DNA from: Salinisphaera hydrothermalis C41B8
GTDB lineage: Bacteria; Pseudomonadota; Gammaproteobacteria; Nevskiales; Salinisphaeraceae
NCBI RefSeq assembly: GCF_000732535.1
Contig: NZ_APNK01000009.1
Location: 1 to 64,000, forward strand
Direction of reading: 5' to 3'
DNA: 64,000 bases
The notes beneath the pieces are model-generated. The model made no database searches. It saw nothing but the letters and a program-made list of their open reading frames with translations, and had not been told where the DNA came from. Positions within the stretch are counted from its first letter, which is position 1; each line of letters opens with the position of its first letter. Both the position numbers and the translations under genes were made by a program. Shown here piece by piece: positions 17,473-27,214 of this stretch.

Positions 17473-17690
17473 GTCGCGATTCAGCGCTCGAATAAGAAAA
17501 CGATCCACGGATTTTGCAGATCACGCCGAGTCACTCGAAATGGCATGGTCTCCAATCTGTGTCATCTGAGAAATCTGCGGATCACACTTGAGGAACGAGC
17601 GCCGTAATCCAAAATTGGCGCTGCCGTTCATGGACCCGCGATCGTCGCCCTCTTAAAGTAGCGGCATTGCTTCGCCGTCTCCCGTTCGTC

Positions 17691-20396
17691 ATGTCCGAAT
17701 CCAATGCCCATGGCCCGCTGATCCTCATCGACGGCTCGTCGTGGCTGTATCGTGCTTTTCACGTGCTGCCGCCATTGACCAATGCCGACGGCCAGCCGAC
17801 CGGTGCGATTTACGGCATGACCAACATGCTGCGCAAGTTCCTGCGCGAGTACGAATCCGATCGCATCGTGGTGGTGTTCGACCCGCGCGGGCCGACCTTC
17901 CGTAACGAACTGTTTCCCGACTACAAGGCCCATCGGCCACCGGTGCCGCCGGATCTGGCCGATCAGTTCGAGGGCATCCGCGAGGTCATCCACGCGATGG
18001 GCCTACCGATCGTGCAGATGGACGGTGTGGAGGCCGACGACGTGATCGGTACGCTGGCCGCGCGTGAGCCCGGCCCCGTCGTGATCGTGACTGGCGACAA
18101 GGACATGGCTCAGCTGGTCGACGAGCGGGTCGTGCTGCTCGATACCATGCAGGACAAGCGCACCGACGTCGCCCGTGTACACGACAAGTTCGGCGTCGGC
18201 CCGGAACTGATCACGGATTATCTGGCGCTGGTCGGCGATACCTCCGACAATATTCCGGGCATCGAGAAGGTTGGCCCGAAGACAGCGGCCAAGTGGTTGA
18301 TCAAGTACGGCAATCTCGCCGGCGTGATCGAGCACGCCGATGAGATCGGCGGCAAGGTGGCCGACAATCTGCGGGCGCGGCTCGACCAGCTGCCGTTGTA
18401 TCAGGATCTGGCCACGATCCGCACCGAGCTGGATCTGACCGGGCTGGCCGACGAATTGACTCGGCGCGAGCCGGACAACGACGCGCTGCATGCGCTGTTT
18501 CGTCGTTACGATTTCAGCAAGTTCCTGGAAGAGCTGGATACTCCGACCGATGTGTCCGCGGCGCCCGACACGCCGGCTGCGCCGAGCGAAACGCAGTATC
18601 ACACCGTGCTCGATATCGAAGCGCTCGAGGCCATGATGGCCAAACTCGAGGCCGCCGAGCTGATCTGCGTGGATACCGAAACCGACGCTCTGTCGGCCAT
18701 GCAGTCGAATCTGGTGGGGCTATCGTTCGCGGTCGAGCCGGGCGAGGCCTGGTATGTGCCGGTCGGGCACAATTATCTCGGCGCACCGGACCAGCTGCCG
18801 ATGGATACCGTCCTCGATCGCGTGCGCGGCGTGCTCGAGAACCCGGCCATCAGCAAGCTCGGCCAGCACATCAAGTATGACCTGAACGTGCTCGCCCGCT
18901 ACAACGTGCATGTCGCCGGCGCCGATCAGGACACCATGCTCGAATCCTATGTGCTGGATTCCACCGCGACGCGCCACGACATGGATTCGCTGGCGCAGAA
19001 ATACCTCGAGCGCAAGACCACCAAGTTCGAGGACGTCGCCGGCAAGGGCGCGAAGCAGGTTGGTTTCAATCAGGTGTCGCTGGATGTCGCCACGCCGTAT
19101 GCGGCCGAGGACGCCGATATCACGCTGCAACTGCATCAGTTGCTGCATGCGCGCTTGAGCGAGGTCGGCCGTCTGCTCGAGCTTTATGAAACGATCGAAA
19201 TGCCGCTGATGCCGGTACTCGCCCGCGTCGAGGCCAACGGCGTGCTGGTCGACGACCAGCTGCTGCGCCGCGTGTCCGGTGAAATGGCCGAGCGCATGAA
19301 AGAGATCGAGAAGGCCGCCTACGACGCCGCCGGCGGCGAGTTCAATCTCGGCTCGCCGGCCCAGCTCAAGGAAATCCTGTTCGATCGGCTGGAATTGCCG
19401 GTTATCCGCAAGACGCCCAAGGGCGCGCCGTCCACGGCCGAGGATGTGCTGCGCGAGCTGGCCGACAAACATGCGCTGCCGGCGCATATCGTGGCCTGGC
19501 GGGAATTGTCGAAGCTGCGTTCGACCTATGCCGACAAGCTGCCGACGCTGATCAATCCGGCGACGGGGCGTATTCACACCAGCTATCACCAGGCTGTGGC
19601 GGCCACCGGGCGCTTGTCGTCTTCCGACCCGAATCTCCAGAACATCCCGATCCGGACCGAGGCCGGCCGGCGTATTCGTGAGGCCTTTATCGCGCCGCCC
19701 GGCACCAAGATCCTGGCGGTGGATTATTCGCAGATCGAGCTGCGCATCATGGCGCATCTGTCGGGCGATCCCGGCCTGCTGGCGGCGTTCAACGAACAGC
19801 GCGACGTCCATGCCGCGACCGCCAGTGAGGTGTTCGATACGCCGCTGGCCGACGTGAGCCCCGACCAGCGGCGCGCGGCCAAGGCGATCAACTTCGGGCT
19901 GATGTACGGCATGTCGGCCTATGGCCTGGCCAAGCAGCTGGACCTGTCGCGCGAAGACGCCGGCGCCTACATCAACAAGTTCTTCGACCGCTTTGCCGGC
20001 GTTGCCAAGTTCATGGACGACACGCGTGCCGCGGCCAAGGCCCAGGGCTATGTCGAAACGCTGTTCGGGCGCCGTCTTTATCTGCCCGAGATCAACGCCC
20101 GCAATGCATCGCGTCGCCAGTACGCCGAACGCACGGCGATCAATGCGCCGTTACAGGGTACGGCTGCCGATCTGATCAAGAAGGCGATGATCGACGTCGA
20201 CGCTTGGCTGCGTGATTCGGCAGTGGAGGCGCGCATGGTGATGCAGGTCCACGACGAGCTGGTGTTCGAAGTGCCGGCCGCCGAAGCCGAAGCATTGGGC
20301 CAGACTATCGCACAGCGCATGAGCGCGGTCGCCGAACTGGACGTGCCGCTGGTGGCCGAAGCCGGCGTGGCCGATAACTGGCAACAGGCGCATTGA
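17691..20396 (+). CDS. polA: DNA polymerase I
   Basis: About 901 aa, full length. The 5'-3' exonuclease domain is at the N-terminus (LILIDGSSWLYRAFH ... VEADDVIGTLA ... GDTSDNIPG). The 3'-5' exonuclease domain keeps its catalytic acids (ICVDTETDALSAM), so proofreading should be intact. The polymerase domain has VDYSQIELRIMAHLSGD, the O-helix RRAAKAINFGLMYGMS, and QVHDELVFEV. I chose ATG 17691 over the upstream TTG frame because homology begins there. Role: Okazaki-fragment maturation and repair. It is followed by a strong hairpin and then the small-RNA array. Confidence 0.97.
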   Translation: MSESNAHGPLILIDGSSWLYRAFHVLPPLTNADGQPTGAIYGMTNMLRKFLREYESDRIVVVFDPRGPTFRNELFPDYKAHRPPVPPDLADQFEGIREVIHAMGLPIVQMDGVEADDVIGTLAAREPGPVVIVTGDKDMAQLVDERVVLLDTMQDKRTDVARVHDKFGVGPELITDYLALVGDTSDNIPGIEKVGPKTAAKWLIKYGNLAGVIEHADEIGGKVADNLRARLDQLPLYQDLATIRTELDLTGLADELTRREPDNDALHALFRRYDFSKFLEELDTPTDVSAAPDTPAAPSETQYHTVLDIEALEAMMAKLEAAELICVDTETDALSAMQSNLVGLSFAVEPGEAWYVPVGHNYLGAPDQLPMDTVLDRVRGVLENPAISKLGQHIKYDLNVLARYNVHVAGADQDTMLESYVLDSTATRHDMDSLAQKYLERKTTKFEDVAGKGAKQVGFNQVSLDVATPYAAEDADITLQLHQLLHARLSEVGRLLELYETIEMPLMPVLARVEANGVLVDDQLLRRVSGEMAERMKEIEKAAYDAAGGEFNLGSPAQLKEILFDRLELPVIRKTPKGAPSTAEDVLRELADKHALPAHIVAWRELSKLRSTYADKLPTLINPATGRIHTSYHQAVAATGRLSSSDPNLQNIPIRTEAGRRIREAFIAPPGTKILAVDYSQIELRIMAHLSGDPGLLAAFNEQRDVHAATASEVFDTPLADVSPDQRRAAKAINFGLMYGMSAYGLAKQLDLSREDAGAYINKFFDRFAGVAKFMDDTRAAAKAQGYVETLFGRRLYLPEINARNASRRQYAERTAINAPLQGTAADLIKKAMIDVDAWLRDSAVEARMVMQVHDELVFEVPAAEAEALGQTIAQRMSAVAELDVPLVAEAGVADNWQQAH

Positions 20397-20398
20397 AG

Positions 20399-20437
20399 CC
20401 CGCCAGGCGCCGGCCGCTGGATCGGCGCCTTGGCGGG
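20399..20437 (+). terminator. Hairpin terminator after polA
   Basis: Long GC-rich inverted repeat 3 bp past the polA stop: arms near CCCGCCAGGCGCC and GGCGCCTTGGCGGG, followed only by TTTG. It separates polA transcription from the downstream small-RNA array. Confidence 0.65.
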
Positions 20438-20520
20438 TTTGCGCTCGCGTCAGTTTCAATACAAATTTCGAGGCATAACAGCGGCTTGTATTTTTTCGGC
20501 AAAATTTTTTCTTGCCCGTC

Positions 20521-20548
20521 GGAACTTGCCGGATGGGGACGGGTCTTA
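20521..20548 (+). promoter_or_regulatory. Sigma-E-type promoter of sRNA unit 1
   Basis: GGAACTT at 20521-20527, 15-nt spacer, GTCTTA at 20543-20548. This matches the known RpoE/AlgU consensus GGAACTT-N15/16-GTCTAA. The first hairpin of the predicted RNA starts 12 nt after the start of the -10 element. Confidence 0.75.
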
Positions 20549-20554
20549 TTCCGT

Positions 20555-20673
20555 GCAAGCACATTGCGGCTTGCCCGCTTTTCTCCCTGAGCGGTAACCC
20601 CCATCCGGTTTCCCCCCAAGAACCGGAATGCTTGCCCCGGTAGCAATTCCCCCTGCTGCCGGGGCTTCTTTTT
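20555..20673 (+). ncRNA. C-rich-loop small RNA, unit 1 of 5
   Basis: Predicted transcript about 119 nt. Hairpin 1 GCAAGC/GCTTGC; hairpin 2 CCGC-TTTTCTCCCTGA-GCGG, identical in all units; hairpin 3 CCGGTT-TCCCCCCAAG-AACCGG; hairpin 4 CCCCGGTAGCA/TGCTGCCGGGG with a C-rich loop, then CTTCTTTTT as terminator. This is the most divergent copy at hairpin 4 apart from unit 5. It occupies the polA-engB interval, which holds Spot 42 in enterobacteria. The unpaired UCUCCC and CCCCCC loops are complementary to Shine-Dalgarno sequences, suggesting trans-acting translational repression. The existence of the family is seen in the sequence; its function is inferred. Confidence 0.8.
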
Positions 20674-20738
20674 GCTCGGCTCCCGTGGCAGAAGCGGGAC
20701 GGCGATTTCCACCTCGAAGAATTTTTTCGAATCGGCTT

Positions 20739-20766
20739 GAAACTTTTCCAGTCGCCTGCAGTCTCA
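20739..20766 (+). promoter_or_regulatory. Sigma-E-type promoter of sRNA unit 2
   Basis: GAAACTT at 20739-20745 (one mismatch to GGAACTT), 15-nt spacer, GTCTCA at 20761-20766. It is the weakest -35 of the five by consensus. Confidence 0.68.
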
Positions 20767-20771
20767 TTCAT

Positions 20772-20877
20772 GTAAGCCAATGCTTACCCGCTTTTCTCCC
20801 TGAGCGGCAACGTCCGGTTCCCCCCCAATGACCGGATCCGCCCCGACGGTTTCCCCCACCGTCGGGGCATTTTTTTT
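20772..20877 (+). ncRNA. C-rich-loop small RNA, unit 2 of 5
   Basis: Predicted transcript about 106 nt. Hairpin 1 GTAAGC-CAAT-GCTTAC; invariant hairpin 2 with TTTTCTCCCTGA loop; hairpin 3 CCGGT-TCCCCCCCAATG-ACCGG; terminator hairpin GCCCCGACGGT/ACCGTCGGGGC with TTCCCCC loop and a run of eight T. Nearly identical to units 3 and 4 from hairpin 2 onward, so these three arose by recent duplication. It is the last unit before the insertion sequence. Confidence 0.83.
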
Positions 20878-20880
20878 GGC

Positions 20881-21275
20881 CCTTCGTAAATCCGTTGGGT
20901 AATAGCGTTCTCTGGGTTGTTCCGAGCGTTCGGAAAGGCGAGACGTGCGAATGGGCGGCGCACTGTACCGGGCGCGCTGAGCCCATGCGGAAGAAGTCCA
21001 GGCCGCCGCTGACCACCAGTTTCGCGCTGCGGCGCGGTTGGCTTCTCCGGCTTGTTCAAAATAGAAGAGCGCTCGGAAGAAGCCATAGCCCGCGCGCGCC
21101 AGCATGACCTCAGAATTCGCAACGAGCTTCTGGGGCAAATGACTCGATAGCAGTCGCCATGCGCCCTGATGGATCTTTCCGGCACCGCCTTGTGGGCCTC
21201 GCCCATCGTGTCCGGCAAAAAGCGGCTAAACGCCGGCTGGAGGCGTTTACCGGGCCGGACTGGAAGAGCTAGTGC
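20881..21275 (-). other. Spacer with possible decayed coding remnant
   Basis: No intact gene. Minus-strand frames contain protein-like stretches in different phases (for example FSRFLPDTMGEAHKAV near 21180-21220 and LARAGYGFFRALFYFEQAG near 21060-21120), as expected for a frameshifted relic. I cannot name the family. It separates sRNA unit 2 from the insertion sequence and is much longer than the other inter-unit spacers (about 70-100 bp between terminator and next promoter start). Confidence 0.3.
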
Positions 21276-21277
21276 TA

Positions 21278-22137
21278 GGGTCTGTTGAGGTTTCGTCACA
21301 TGGGCAGCCAGAGCAGAGCACATGCCATGGCGACGACCGCTTCGTAGTGCGTCTTTAATTTATCGAAGCGACAAGCGATCGCACGGTACTGTTTGAGCCG
21401 TGCAAACGCGTTCTCGACGAGATGGCGATAACGGTACAAACCGCTATCGAAGTCTGGATTGGCTCGCTTGGAATGACGCCGGCGCGGAATGACCGGCCGA
21501 CTGGATCGAGTCTGGATCGCGGCTCGAACCCGACGACTGTCATAGCCTTTGTCCGCGATCATGATGTCAACGCGAGGTATCGCGTCGACCAGGCTCGGCC
21601 CGATCGAACAATCGTTGATCTGACCGCCCGTGATCTCGAAGGTGATCGGCAAGCCGTAGGCATCCACGGCCAAGTGAATCTTGGTCGTGCGCCCGGCGCG
21701 ACTGGCGCCGATCGCCTGCGGCTGACCGCCGCTAGCCCCGGCACTGTGCTGGTGGGCCTTGGCATAGCTGCCATCCATAAACGCCCATTCGAGATCGGGG
21801 TCGACGATGCACGCATGGAAAATACGCCGCCACTTGCCACTGGCGGCCCAGGCTCGAAAACGCTGATAAATCGTAGTCCACGGCCCGAAGGCCTGCGGCA
21901 GATCGCGCCATGGGCATCCGACCCGCACACGGTAGAGCATGCCCTCGACTGTTTGCCGCAATCGTGGCTTGTCGTAAATCGACTCAGCCAGCAGTATCTG
22001 TCTGAGCTTCGCTCAGAGCTTTTCTGAGAGCATCTGGCGGGCCATGGCGAACTCGTTTTGAAGCGGGGGTGGAATACCGCAACAATGCGAGTTCGCCATT
22101 TCATTTCAATCGCTTATGACGAAACCTCAACACGTCC
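21278..22137 (-). mobile_element. IS5-family (IS427-like) insertion sequence, 860 bp
   Basis: Terminal inverted repeats are GGGTCTGTTGAGGTTTCGTC at the left and, in reverse complement, GGACGTGTTGAGGTTTCGTC at the right, 18/20 identical. The element is flanked by TA on both sides (21276-21277 and 22138-22139) within CTAG contexts, typical of the IS427 group. One transposase gene fills it on the minus strand. The insertion lies between sRNA units 2 and 3 without breaking either unit. Confidence 0.9.
21296..22045 (-). pseudogene. IS5-family transposase with early nonsense codon
   Basis: From ATG 22045 the protein would start MARQMLSEKL, then hits an in-frame TGA at 22013-22015 (codon 11), then continues AKLRQILLAESIYDKPRLRQTVEGMLYRVR and a full DDE transposase (MDGSYAKAHQH, ADKGYDS, C-terminal VENAFARLKQYRAIACRFDK). 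IS5 relatives usually have Trp at the TGA position, so TGG to TGA is the likely change. Reinitiation downstream (for example the frame from 21961) could give a shortened protein, but activity is doubtful. Confidence 0.85.
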
Positions 22138-22183
22138 TAGTGCCTTCAATCCGATATACCGAGAATTTTTTTTGAGGCTTGCG

Positions 22184-22211
22184 GGAACTCTGTGCGACGT
22201 GCGGCGTCTGA
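22184..22211 (+). promoter_or_regulatory. Sigma-E-type promoter of sRNA unit 3
   Basis: GGAACTC at 22184-22190, 15-nt spacer, GTCTGA at 22206-22211. It lies 47 bp downstream of the insertion-sequence end, so unit 3 keeps its own promoter despite the insertion. Confidence 0.72.
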
Positions 22212-22217
22212 CTTGAT

Positions 22218-22321
22218 GTAGGCCATGGCCTACCCGCTTTTCTCCCTGAGCGGTTACATCCGGTTCCCTCCCCAAGACCGGATCCGCCCCGACGGTTTCC
22301 CCCACCGTCGGGGCTTTTTTT
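22218..22321 (+). ncRNA. C-rich-loop small RNA, unit 3 of 5
   Basis: Predicted transcript about 104 nt. Hairpin 1 GTAGGC-CATG-GCCTAC; invariant hairpin 2; hairpin 3 CCGGT-TCCCTCCCCAAG-ACCGG; terminator GCCCCGACGGT/ACCGTCGGGGC with TTCCCCC loop and seven T. Same architecture and promoter type as units 2 and 4. First unit after the insertion sequence. Confidence 0.83.
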
Positions 22322-22359
22322 GCTCGACGAACGCATAGCGTAAAAATTTTCGCATCGGC

Positions 22360-22387
22360 GGAACTTCTCGAGCGAGCCCGTGTCTAC
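22360..22387 (+). promoter_or_regulatory. Sigma-E-type promoter of sRNA unit 4
   Basis: GGAACTT at 22360-22366, 15-nt spacer, GTCTAC at 22382-22387. Perfect -35 match to the RpoE consensus. Confidence 0.75.
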
Positions 22388-22393
22388 TTCTAT

Positions 22394-22496
22394 ACAGGCA
22401 ACGCCTGTCCGCTTTTCTCCCTGAGCGGCTACATCCGGTTCCCCCCCAATGACCGGATCCGCCCCGACGGTTTCCCCCGACCGTCGGGGCTTTTTT
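22394..22496 (+). ncRNA. C-rich-loop small RNA, unit 4 of 5
   Basis: Predicted transcript about 103 nt. Hairpin 1 ACAGGC-AAC-GCCTGT; invariant hairpin 2; hairpin 3 CCGGT-TCCCCCCCAATG-ACCGG, identical to unit 2; terminator GCCCCGACGGT/ACCGTCGGGGC with TTCCCCCG loop and six T. The 5' hairpin differs at both strands in a compensating way from units 2 and 3. Confidence 0.83.
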
Positions 22497-22546
22497 ATGG
22501 TCGTTTTTCGCGACCTGATCGGCTCCCGAATTATTCGACGGGCCCG

Positions 22547-22574
22547 GGAACTTTTCTCCGGGCCTGTCGTCTAT
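22547..22574 (+). promoter_or_regulatory. Sigma-E-type promoter of sRNA unit 5
   Basis: GGAACTT at 22547-22553, 15-nt spacer, GTCTAT at 22569-22574. Confidence 0.75.
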
Positions 22575-22581
22575 ATTCACA

Positions 22582-22690
22582 GCAGGCCGTGCCTGCCCGC
22601 TTTTCTCCCTGAGCGGTTAGAGTCCGGTTCCCCCTAAGATCGGATTCGGCGCCTCGGCGGCGTTCCCTGCGTCGCCGAGGCCCTTTTTAT
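22582..22690 (+). ncRNA. C-rich-loop small RNA, unit 5 of 5
   Basis: Predicted transcript about 109 nt. Hairpin 1 GCAGGC-CGT-GCCTGC; invariant hairpin 2; hairpin 3 TCCGG-TTCCCCCTAAGA-TCGGA; terminator stem GCCTCGGCG/CGCCGAGGC with a TTCCCTG-containing loop and CCTTTTTATTTT. The terminator stem sequence differs from units 2-4 but pairs equally well. It ends about 140 bp before the convergent engB stop. Confidence 0.82.
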
Positions 22691-22832
22691 TTTCCCTGGG
22701 CGTAACCCGTGGATCCTGTTATCGCACAAGCCATCGCCCGGGTCGACTCTTAAACGCGATTTTGCCGACAAGTGGTCGGTCTGGCTCGATGAACGTAGCG
22801 CGTCCGGGCGCAACCTGAATAAGCGTTGCGTT

Positions 22833-23507
22833 TCAGTCGGATGTCTCGATCAGCGGATCATCGCCATCGCTTTCGTCATCCGGGACGAGCGCCGAGATCG
22901 CGGCTCGTGCTTCCTCGATACCGATTCGCTTGGTCGATGAAAACAGTTGGGCGGTCGCACCTTCGACCGCGGCGCGCGTGCGACGCAAAACATTGTGTTG
23001 CTCGTTACGCGACAGTTTGTCGGCCTTGGTCAGCATGAGATGGAAGGCCAGCCCGTAGGCGCTCCCCCATTCGATCAGCTGTCGATCGAAATCCAGCAGC
23101 GGCCGGCGGGCATCCATGATCAGCACGATGCCGGCCAGCGTTTCACGCTCGGCCAGATAGCCCTCGATCAGCGCGCCCCATTCGGCCTTGATGGCCGGCG
23201 GTACGCGCGCAAAGCCATAGCCGGGCAGATCGGCGAAGCGCAGCCGATCGTTATCGAAGAAATTGATCGCCTGGGTACGTCCGGGCGTTTTACTAGTGCG
23301 TGCGAGGTTGCCCTGCTCGCACAAGGCATTGAGCGCGCTCGACTTGCCGGCGTTCGAGCGCCCGGCGAACGCGATTTCGCAGCGATCGGCCGGCGGCAGC
23401 GCCGAGAGCTTGGGCGCCGACAGCAGAAAGCGCATGGTTCGAAAATCGCGGGCGGTGAGTTCGGGCATCGATGAGATCAGGCTGGTAGTGTGACGGCGCT
23501 CGGCCAT
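22833..23507 (-). CDS. engB: Ribosome biogenesis GTP-binding protein EngB (YihA/YsxC)
   Basis: 224 aa TRAFAC-class GTPase. G1 is GRSNAGKSS, G2 is in TPGRTQ, G3 is DLPGYG, G4 is TKADK and G5 is the SS of FSSTKR. It acts in late 50S subunit assembly. The order polA - small RNA - engB is the same as around spf in E. coli. It is convergent with the sRNA array and divergent from dsbA. MPELTARDF further in is a possible shorter start. Confidence 0.95.
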   Translation of the reverse strand: MAERRHTTSLISSMPELTARDFRTMRFLLSAPKLSALPPADRCEIAFAGRSNAGKSSALNALCEQGNLARTSKTPGRTQAINFFDNDRLRFADLPGYGFARVPPAIKAEWGALIEGYLAERETLAGIVLIMDARRPLLDFDRQLIEWGSAYGLAFHLMLTKADKLSRNEQHNVLRRTRAAVEGATAQLFSSTKRIGIEEARAAISALVPDDESDGDDPLIETSD

Positions 23508-25855: not shown

Positions 25856-27214
25856 ATGGGCCAGTATTATCCGTTCTTCAAGGCGTACGACGTGCGGGCG
25901 CGGGTGCCCGAAGAACTCGACGCCGACATGGCGCGCCGCATCGGCCTGGCGTTTGCCGCCGAACTGGGCGCGAAGACCGTCGTGGTCGGGCGCGATATGC
26001 GCCTGTCCAGCCCCGAACTGGCCGATGCCCTGATCGACGGGCTGACCACGGCGGGCGCCGATGTGCTCGATATCGGGCTATGCGGCACCGAGGAAGTCTA
26101 CTACGGCGTCTTTTCGCAGAATGCCGACGGCGGCGTGATGGTCACCGCCAGCCATAATCCCAAGGATTACAACGGCCTGAAGTTCGTACGCGAACAGGCC
26201 AAGCCGATTTCGGCGGATACCGGCCTGGCTGATATCGAGCGTCGCGTGCACGCCAACGACGTCAGCCCGGCTGCCACGCCAGGCGAGCGCCGCCCGCTGG
26301 ATCAACGCGACGCCTATGTCGCTTTTCTGCTGGCCCAGATCAAGCCGGAAAACTTCAAGCCGCTCAAGATCGTGGTCAATCCGGGCAACGGCTGTGCCGG
26401 GCTGGTGGTCGAGAAGCTGGCCGAAAAACTGCCGTTCGAATTCGTGCGCATGCAGTTCGAGCCGGACGGCGAGCTGCCCAATGGCGTACCCAACCCGTTG
26501 CTGGTGGAAAACCGCGAGGCGACTTCGAAAGTCGTGCGCGACGCCGGCGCGGACTTCGGCGTGGCCTGGGACGGCGATTTCGACCGTTGCTTCTTCTTCG
26601 ACGAACACGGCGAGTTCATCGAGGGCTATTACATCGTGGGCCTGATTGCTCAGATGTTGCTCAAAATGAACCCGGGCGAAGCAATCGTGCACGACCCGCG
26701 TCTGATCTGGAACACGCTGGCCCAGGTCGAGGAAGCCGGCGGCCGAGCGGTCGAATCCAAATCCGGCCATTCGTTCATGAAGCAGGTCATGCGCGAGAAC
26801 GATGCGCTGTATGGCGGCGAGATGAGCGCGCACCATTATTTCCGTGAATTCTCCTATGCCGATAACGGCCACCTGCCGTGGCTGGTTATCGCGCAACTCA
26901 TTTCGGAAACCGGCAAAGGCCTGTCCACGCTGGTCAAGGAACGCATCGCTGCGTTCCCGGCTTCGGGCGAGATCAATCGTAAGGTCGACGACGCTGATGC
27001 CGTGATGGCCGACATGGAGGCGCATTACGCCGATTCCGCTCAGAGCGTGGAGCACGTCGACGGCCTGTCGATGGATTTCGGCGACTGGCGCTTCAATCTG
27101 CGCAAATCGAACACCGAACCGGTGATTCGGCTCAACGTTGAAACCCGCGGCGACAAGGCGTTGATGCAGGAAAAGACCGACGAACTGCTCGCGCGTATCG
27201 GCGGCACGGCGTAA
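25856..27214 (+). CDS. manB: Phosphomannomutase
   Basis: 452 aa alpha-D-phosphohexomutase. The phosphoserine loop is VTASHNPKDYNGLKF, the metal-binding loop DGDFDRC, the sugar loop GEMSAHHYF, and the phosphate-binding RKSNTEPVIRLN segment is near the C-terminus. It interconverts mannose-6-P and mannose-1-P, supplying manC. The CpsG-type N-terminus MGQYYPFFKAYDVRARVP favours mannose over a strict glucose enzyme, although a dual role is possible. RBS AAGGAG precedes the ATG. Confidence 0.92.
   Translation: MGQYYPFFKAYDVRARVPEELDADMARRIGLAFAAELGAKTVVVGRDMRLSSPELADALIDGLTTAGADVLDIGLCGTEEVYYGVFSQNADGGVMVTASHNPKDYNGLKFVREQAKPISADTGLADIERRVHANDVSPAATPGERRPLDQRDAYVAFLLAQIKPENFKPLKIVVNPGNGCAGLVVEKLAEKLPFEFVRMQFEPDGELPNGVPNPLLVENREATSKVVRDAGADFGVAWDGDFDRCFFFDEHGEFIEGYYIVGLIAQMLLKMNPGEAIVHDPRLIWNTLAQVEEAGGRAVESKSGHSFMKQVMRENDALYGGEMSAHHYFREFSYADNGHLPWLVIAQLISETGKGLSTLVKERIAAFPASGEINRKVDDADAVMADMEAHYADSAQSVEHVDGLSMDFGDWRFNLRKSNTEPVIRLNVETRGDKALMQEKTDELLARIGGTA

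Follow-up and report, generated by a model that had tools for sequence, protein, structure and literature searches.

The window analysed here comprises the first 64,000 nucleotides (nt) of contig NZ_APNK01000009.1 of the salt-loving bacterium Salinisphaera hydrothermalis C41B8. Its gap between polA and a downstream gene that we take, from its position, to be engB (yihA) spans 20397-22832 and holds five units of the small RNA (sRNA) type, all on the + strand. These units are very likely real sRNA genes. Judged from the sequence, the array would represent five sibling sRNA genes that are driven by sigmaE, amplified for dose, equipped with anti-Shine-Dalgarno loops and directed at envelope mRNAs, in the manner of LhrC1-5 of Listeria, a reading in which we place good though not full confidence. 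The array is an amplified form of an old gammaproteobacterial family located at polA-engB. An earlier note, drawn up from the letters of this stretch, had already placed five paralogous units between the two genes, and all five are found there; it overlooked the sigmaE promoters, an insertion sequence (IS) inside the interval it reported, the genus-wide occurrence of the array and the multi-copy cases elsewhere.

The units are ~107-123 nt long and share one order of elements: a sigmaE-type promoter, a 5' hairpin, a hairpin 1, a second, C-rich-loop hairpin and a terminator. Unit 1 (~20552..20674), placed by folding and alignment, combines the UUCUCCCU loop of hairpin 1 with a C6 loop in the following hairpin, and its promoter (GGAACTT-15-GTCTTA) lies at 20521..20548. 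Units 2 (~20770..20878), 3 (~22216..22322), 4 (~22391..22499) and 5 (~22579..22691) are preceded by promoters at 20739..20766 (GAAACTT-15-GTCTCA), 22184..22211 (GGAACTC-15-GTCTGA), 22360..22387 (GGAACTT-15-GTCTAC) and 22547..22574 (GGAACTT-15-GTCTAT), respectively, all detected by promoter pattern scan; unit 5 has a divergent terminator and a long branch in the tree of units. Every unit is more stable than its dinucleotide shuffles, with z-scores of -5.9, -7.1, -6.9, -6.9 and -7.3 from unit 1 to unit 5 and none of 200 shuffles as stable in any of the five cases, and the common four-hairpin plan proposed in the earlier note is borne out. Hairpin 1 reads CCGCUU-UUCUCCCU-GAGCGG throughout the window. 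Its invariance had been recognised before, but the loop as then given is to be corrected to 8 nt (UUCUCCCU) on a stem of 6 base pairs (bp), because the outer U-A and U-G pairs close. Likewise, the C5-C7 loop ascribed to hairpin 2 is unbroken except in unit 3, where it reads CCCUCCCC, and the C5 ascribed to the terminator loop is present in units 1-4 but shortened to CCC in unit 5. All five units end in a strong, G+C-rich, terminator-like hairpin that has a C-rich loop and runs into a T-tract.

A promoter of the form GRAACTY-N15-GTCT precedes each unit with identical spacing, 15 nt from the seven-base -35 element to GTCT, and an AT-rich tract lies upstream of most of these promoters. The pattern G[GA]AACT-N15-17-GTCT occurs exactly five times on both strands of the 64 kilobases (kb), once ahead of each unit, against a mean of 0.2 and a maximum of 3 in 200 random sequences matched in dinucleotide composition; a scan for sigma70-like promoters of the units gave no sites. 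The RpoE/AlgU consensus is GGAACTT...TCTGA, which the unit promoters resemble. This agrees with the earlier view of five independent genes, each with a promoter and a terminator of its own. The same elements bear on the choice of strand, since the reverse complement of hairpin 1 shows AGGGAGA (GGGA) in its loop and the reverse strand might be read as the functional one, giving a GGA-loop RNA that would act as a sponge for CsrA/RsmA. The five promoters and the five U-tract terminators, however, are all on the + strand, so that we regard a functional reverse strand as extremely improbable; the covariation described below is blind to strand. Terminator-like sites number 16, of which two, both outside the units, are on the - strand.

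R1, a model trained only on the five units of the window, has matches in 59 of 61 genomes, the window genome included. In Salinisphaera, arrays of 3-6 units at polA-engB occur in 13 of 14 genomes and amount to 50 units, with polA and engB beside the other 12 arrays too; G010, the sole genome of the genus without an R1 match, is an assembly 81% complete. At polA-engB, three genomes from other genera of the family carry a single unit, and 25 further loci of the order possess 1-3 units each, with polA or engB within reach in 23 of them. Hairpin 1 is identical in 48 of the 50 Salinisphaera units; CTCCCTG occurs in every unit of a diverse set of 47. In the window genome (4.28 Mb), the 20-mer CCGCTTTTCTCCCTGAGCGG is exact in the five units and has five sites in all at up to 3 mismatches, with none for the reversed-pattern control. 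Searched more widely, the inner 18-mer of hairpin 1 occurs in 25 named stretches, 17 of which score above 40 bits with R1 and are units, the other 8 being unrelated bacteria or stretches (27 bits at best). Records with both the 18-mer and a unit belong to Salinisphaera shabanensis, S. japonica, S. orenii, S. halophila and other members of the genus or family, and beyond these to three Thioalkalivibrio, one Gallionellaceae and one betaproteobacterial record. A sixth, weak R1 match in the window genome (C20:245-322, 30 bits) was rejected as a unit, being a terminator-like hairpin just past the stop codon of an open reading frame (ORF) and lacking the hairpin-1 loop.

An absence of conserved structure in relatives, which the earlier note had named as a refutation, is not what the alignments show. 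Among 49 distinct Salinisphaera units, 95.5% of the alignment cells are paired, 15 of 29 pairs show two-sided changes, and none of 500 shuffles reaches any of the pairing or covariation measures, with the caveat that kinship alone can outdo shuffles and that the structure was derived from the same sequences. Sliding the partner columns by 1-3 positions lowers pairing to 29-50%. The covariation is located mostly in the 5' stem and the terminator; hairpin 1, whose six pairs are invariant, therefore gives no covariation evidence. The alignment of 47 diverse units has two-sided changes in 19 of 23 predicted pairs, in a MAFFT alignment with some rows off in the second hairpin and with hairpin 1 shifted by one between lineages.

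In a tree of 53 units, the first, middle and last units group by position across species, with 9 label changes compared with 21.8 after shuffling (0 of 200 shuffles as low), although support is low at many nodes and near-copies from sister species boost the clustering. This position-wise grouping suggests that a multi-unit array probably existed early in Salinisphaera. In some species the middle units later increased in number, as seen for units 3 and 4 of G007 and units 2-4 of G001.

Tandem copies are not confined to the genus, and the earlier belief that the RNA is single-copy elsewhere does not always hold. Within the order of the window, several genomes have 2-3 tandem units, with three each in G035, G043 and G050. 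A wider model (R2), built from the 47 diverse units, matches 178 of 370 sampled class genomes, with a single match in 145 of the 178 under strict filters, by which weak copies may be lost. Several matches are found outside Salinisphaera in G170 (three), G182 (three, on different contigs) and G291 (five); under looser filters, three occur in a row at polA in L124 (G272), and L155 has two tandem anti-hemB matches. The five units of G291 (L157), which belongs to another gammaproteobacterial family, lie directly downstream of polA at a spacing of 150-170 nt; in its units 2-5, hairpin 1 no longer shows the CUCCCU loop, but hairpin 2 keeps a CUCCCCCC loop. Since this array stands in a separate family, amplification at the polA locus probably happened more than once. 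A literature search of titles and abstracts returned no tandem array at polA, and printed reports may exist beyond this search. L078, listed as Endozoicomonas sp. G2_2, contains a Salinisphaera array together with a polA that shares 81% identity with that of the window, and is probably mislabelled.

A search of the window against Rfam at gathering cut-offs yields no match. Below the cut-offs, the window units score 27-38.5 bits with the anti-hemB model (RF02837; best E 8e-7, cut-off 49.5) and 27-35.3 bits with the sX13 model (RF02232; best E 2e-4, cut-off 50), and two of the five appear in the match list of ErsA (RF01719) at 21-24 bits (best 23.8, cut-off 50), a model that reaches 37 bits in the Salinisphaera relative G003. 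Homology to Spot 42 (RF00021) was rejected at 16 bits against a cut-off of 80 (E 7.7-9.3). Among the RNAs that the earlier note had put forward for comparison, kinship is supported for sX13 and weakly for ErsA, but not for Spot 42 (E 7.7); it is supported for anti-hemB as well. In the opposite direction, R1 scores 34.4 bits on the sX13 locus L139 (103 bits with Rfam sX13), 27.6-53.5 bits on five loci passing the anti-hemB cut-off and a weak 22.8 bits (E 7e-6) on the ErsA locus L171, where R2 likewise gives ~23 bits; each match is the best of its locus and sits at the Rfam-matched place, in what is a small search of preselected loci with rough E-values. Some of the training units of R2 pass the anti-hemB cut-off themselves, so that its matches to anti-hemB are in part built in and R1 is the clean test. 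The recovery by R1 of sX13 and anti-hemB loci, and more weakly of ErsA, suggests a single family behind these separate names, the kinship with sX13 and anti-hemB being suggested by sequence and that with ErsA by locus and promoter. No paper treating sX13 and ErsA together was found in the literature searched.

Of 40 class loci matched by R2 and fetched, mostly picked because they scored high, held several copies or lay on a complete contig, 33 have polA or engB in the vicinity. In the order of the window, 5 of 20 loci have units at polA that exceed the anti-hemB cut-off (7 matches), as does a Gallionellaceae locus beside engB. The ErsA locus L171, found by the ErsA model, adjoins polA and shows GAACTTC...GTCATA upstream; position and promoter agree with the window units, the sequence barely. 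The synteny with ErsA and sX13 proposed in the earlier note holds in both cases. L133, L134 and L137 are family members, most of them with GAAC-type promoters, in which no polA or engB was found nearby, and represent dispersed paralogs in other lineages. Several similar palindromes between convergent genes could also be taken for repetitive elements of the REP/BIME type, or for a composite terminator of polA, with no sRNA function. Against this stand the occurrence of hairpin 1 at one locus only in the genome, the conserved promoter of each unit, the position-wise clustering across species and the scores of relatives at this locus, which exceed the Rfam cut-offs of two RNAs described as sRNAs, sX13 and anti-hemB; a purely palindromic origin is accordingly very improbable.

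The promoter is conserved along with the units. A pattern GAAC[TCA]-N15-17-[GAC]TC is found upstream of 48 of 50 Salinisphaera units (randomised mean 1.2), of 37 of 42 units from the rest of the family and order (1.7) and of 42 of 58 class-level units (0.9), with sX13 in L139 among the 16 misses; these counts leave out the two weakest of 60 R2 matches (E 0.04) and one of 43 units with N upstream. A strict genome-wide pattern, GGAACTTN{15,16}GTCTNA, matched unit 1 alone (1 match; reversed control 1) and is silent on the regulon because it is too strict, requiring an A absent from units 4 and 5 and a GGAACTT absent from units 2 and 3. The genome encodes Hfq and also RpoE (290 bits, above the curated cut-off), followed by proteins with RseA_N and MucB_RseB domains, i.e. 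rpoE-rseA-rseB. GAACTA...GTCTA lies upstream of rpoE in the window genome and in the sister G007, in the window genome with the 15-nt gap of the units, and this like spacing fits an autoregulated sigmaE. Promoter, operon and class-wide conservation together make sigmaE control of the units likely. Under envelope stress, RseA would release RpoE and all five genes would fire together, giving a high dose of RNA set by copy number.

Loop 1 is complementary to TCAGGGAGA ribosome-binding sites, which supports, by sequence, the anti-Shine-Dalgarno loops proposed for the polA locus in the earlier note. The pattern TCAGGGAGA-N2-10-ATG has 53 matches at 52 distinct sites in the 14 Salinisphaera genomes (reversed control 2), 50 of which are covered by the counts below. 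At these sites a DcaP/Porin_2-type porin recurs in 5 species, a TolC-type outer-membrane lipoprotein, a DUF3015 lipoprotein and a BrkB-type membrane protein in 3 each, and another lipoprotein, a formate/nitrite transporter and an HU/IHF-type protein in 2 each. Perfect complementarity to loop 1 over at least 12 nt is found at 12 of 50 sites, compared with 5.7 in column permutations (maximum 11 in 1000). By a loose count with a home-made signal-peptide rule, secreted proteins or lipoproteins make up 21 of 38 ORFs of at least 60 amino acids versus 3 of 32 in two control patterns, a difference inflated by orthologs counted separately and by internal ATGs in the controls. Among the eight best porin homologs (46-100% identical; nine weaker matches are excluded, eight of them 31-36% identical and one a second piece of a counted gene), all eight have an upstream G-run and seven have CAGGGAGAAA at the ribosome site, an arrangement that would fit loop 1 and a poly-C loop together and in part reflects plain Shine-Dalgarno conservation. 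In the window genome, the readable candidates comprise two lipoproteins along with a small membrane protein (L216, L221, L220). In six of the eight Salinisphaera genomes with a good homolog, the candidate porin shares a contig with the array and lies ~13-22 kb away from it (L284-L289).

Envelope targets are probable on this evidence. The loop 1 sequence (UCUCCCUGA) and the poly-C loops would pair with the Shine-Dalgarno region and the upstream G-runs of outer-membrane and envelope mRNAs, and such pairing would block ribosome entry, so that fewer new envelope proteins are made. The invariant loop 1 would give the five RNAs a common target set, and the variable 5' hairpin together with the hairpin 2 and terminator loops may allow partial specialisation.

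Several points weigh against so complete a scheme, whose expression, sigmaE dependence and targets are all read from sequence. With a filter for true starts, applied to the 30 test loci having full flanks, the envelope enrichment is modest, 6 of 11 versus 3 of 19 in the controls (p 0.035), and the share of signal peptides among these true-start ORFs compares with 9 of 38 in generic genes (p 0.06). Because the first control pattern, TAAAGGAGA, yielded no more than 12 sites (reversed control 10), a composition-matched control, TCGAGGAGA, was run; it has 126 sites (reversed 5), more than the 53 of the test pattern, and the number of sites is thus no evidence of targeting. All 12 control loci of TAAAGGAGA and 30 of the 126 for TCGAGGAGA were examined. 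The 12 of 50 sites with long complementarity count orthologs separately, and 3 of the 12 precede short frames (two of 13 codons, one of 46); Shine-Dalgarno sequences in general partly resemble the complement of the loop. The candidate porin has no match in the window genome, the sister G007 or G001 (E 1e-10). ErsA represses algC, and a phosphomannomutase-like gene, presumably algC, lies in the window at 25856-27214, 3 kb from the array; as a target it was rejected, its ribosome site AAGGAG not fitting loop 1.

These points leave room for a second reading, in which the units are real sRNAs of the sX13/anti-hemB/ErsA family with metabolic or global targets, like Spot 42 and NmsR, and the sigmaE promoter sets only their timing. 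Loop-1 sites before genes for a lactate permease, the formate/nitrite transporter and the HU/IHF-type DNA-binding protein would fit it, as would the modest envelope enrichment and the diverse targets reported for sX13 in Xanthomonas (PMC3771888). The largest clusters across species, however, are the porin (5), the TolC-type lipoprotein (3), a small lipoprotein (3) and the BrkB-type protein (3), and the AlgU-driven ErsA is reported to repress the porin OprD (PMC8395346). We therefore hold metabolic or global targets to be unlikely, if far less so than a reverse-strand or palindromic origin, and prefer envelope mRNAs as the targets of the array.

The array is flanked upstream by polA (17667..20396, + strand, start codon as listed), with Pfam DNA_pol_A and exonuclease domains, and downstream by the presumed engB (22833..23507, - strand), with a Pfam MMR_HSR1 GTPase domain. 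An IS5-type element (21275..22140, - strand) with 24-nt terminal inverted repeats, 88% complementary, and CTAG at both ends is inserted into the spacer between units 2 and 3 and leaves all units whole; its transposase ORF (21296-21961, - strand) has DDE_Tnp_1 and DUF4096 (IS4/5) domains. The ~380 nt separating unit 2 from the IS element (20890-21270) contain no unit that was found.

Among known RNAs, sX13 of Xanthomonas is described as having three stem-loops with C-rich loops downstream of polA and as repressing mRNAs with G-rich motifs near the start, its targets being diverse (PMC3771888). The window units share its position (polA ends at 20396, unit 1 starts at ~20552), the C-rich apical loops of CCCC or more in hairpin 2 and terminator, apart from the CCC of the unit 5 terminator, and the C5 of the terminator loop; sX13 is reported to act independently of Hfq and, at L139, has a poor sigmaE-like promoter. 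Anti-hemB, or Burkholderia RNA 7 (PMC3521395, PMC5688073), has a nearly identical hairpin 1 and differs in its two tandem copies in L155, no five-copy case of it having been seen. ErsA of Pseudomonas is reported from the polA-engB gap as dependent on AlgU (sigma22) and repressing OprD (PMC8575079, PMC8395346); it resembles the window units in place and in the AlgU/sigmaE-type promoter, by sequence present in all five, and differs in its weak sequence match and its single match in the genome of L171, and the putative porin link here is one of loop complementarity to a porin leader in related species. Spot 42 of E. coli has the same polA-adjacent place (PMC3771888) and no meaningful sequence match.

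Tentatively, and at odds we put a little below even, sX13, anti-hemB, ErsA and the arrays may all belong to one ancient family that would form a porin-repressing, non-coding arm of the RpoE/AlgU response at polA-engB in proteobacteria, with dose evolving by tandem copy number; Salinisphaera (3-6 units) and the G291 lineage (five) would then have reached an LhrC-like multi-copy design independently of each other and of Listeria. Such a family would unite RNAs named apart in Xanthomonas, Burkholderia and Pseudomonas through a common locus, promoter type and loop. It would also predict a sigmaE RNA arm shared by a large part of Gammaproteobacteria. Sibling sRNAs are known, and a review from 2014 describes the reason for keeping their copies as an open question (PMC4211561). 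The copy series of Salinisphaera, 3-6 by species, offers a natural test of sRNA amplification, dose versus division of labour. Listeria belongs to a different phylum from the window organism, and the likeness of the array to LhrC1-5 is one of functional analogy, made without a claim of homology and with a different control. LhrC1-5 is reported as five copies of 111-114 nt with three C-rich UCCC regions, which are induced by cell-envelope stress, bind the Shine-Dalgarno sequences of surface-protein mRNAs and appear to act additively (PMC6794450).

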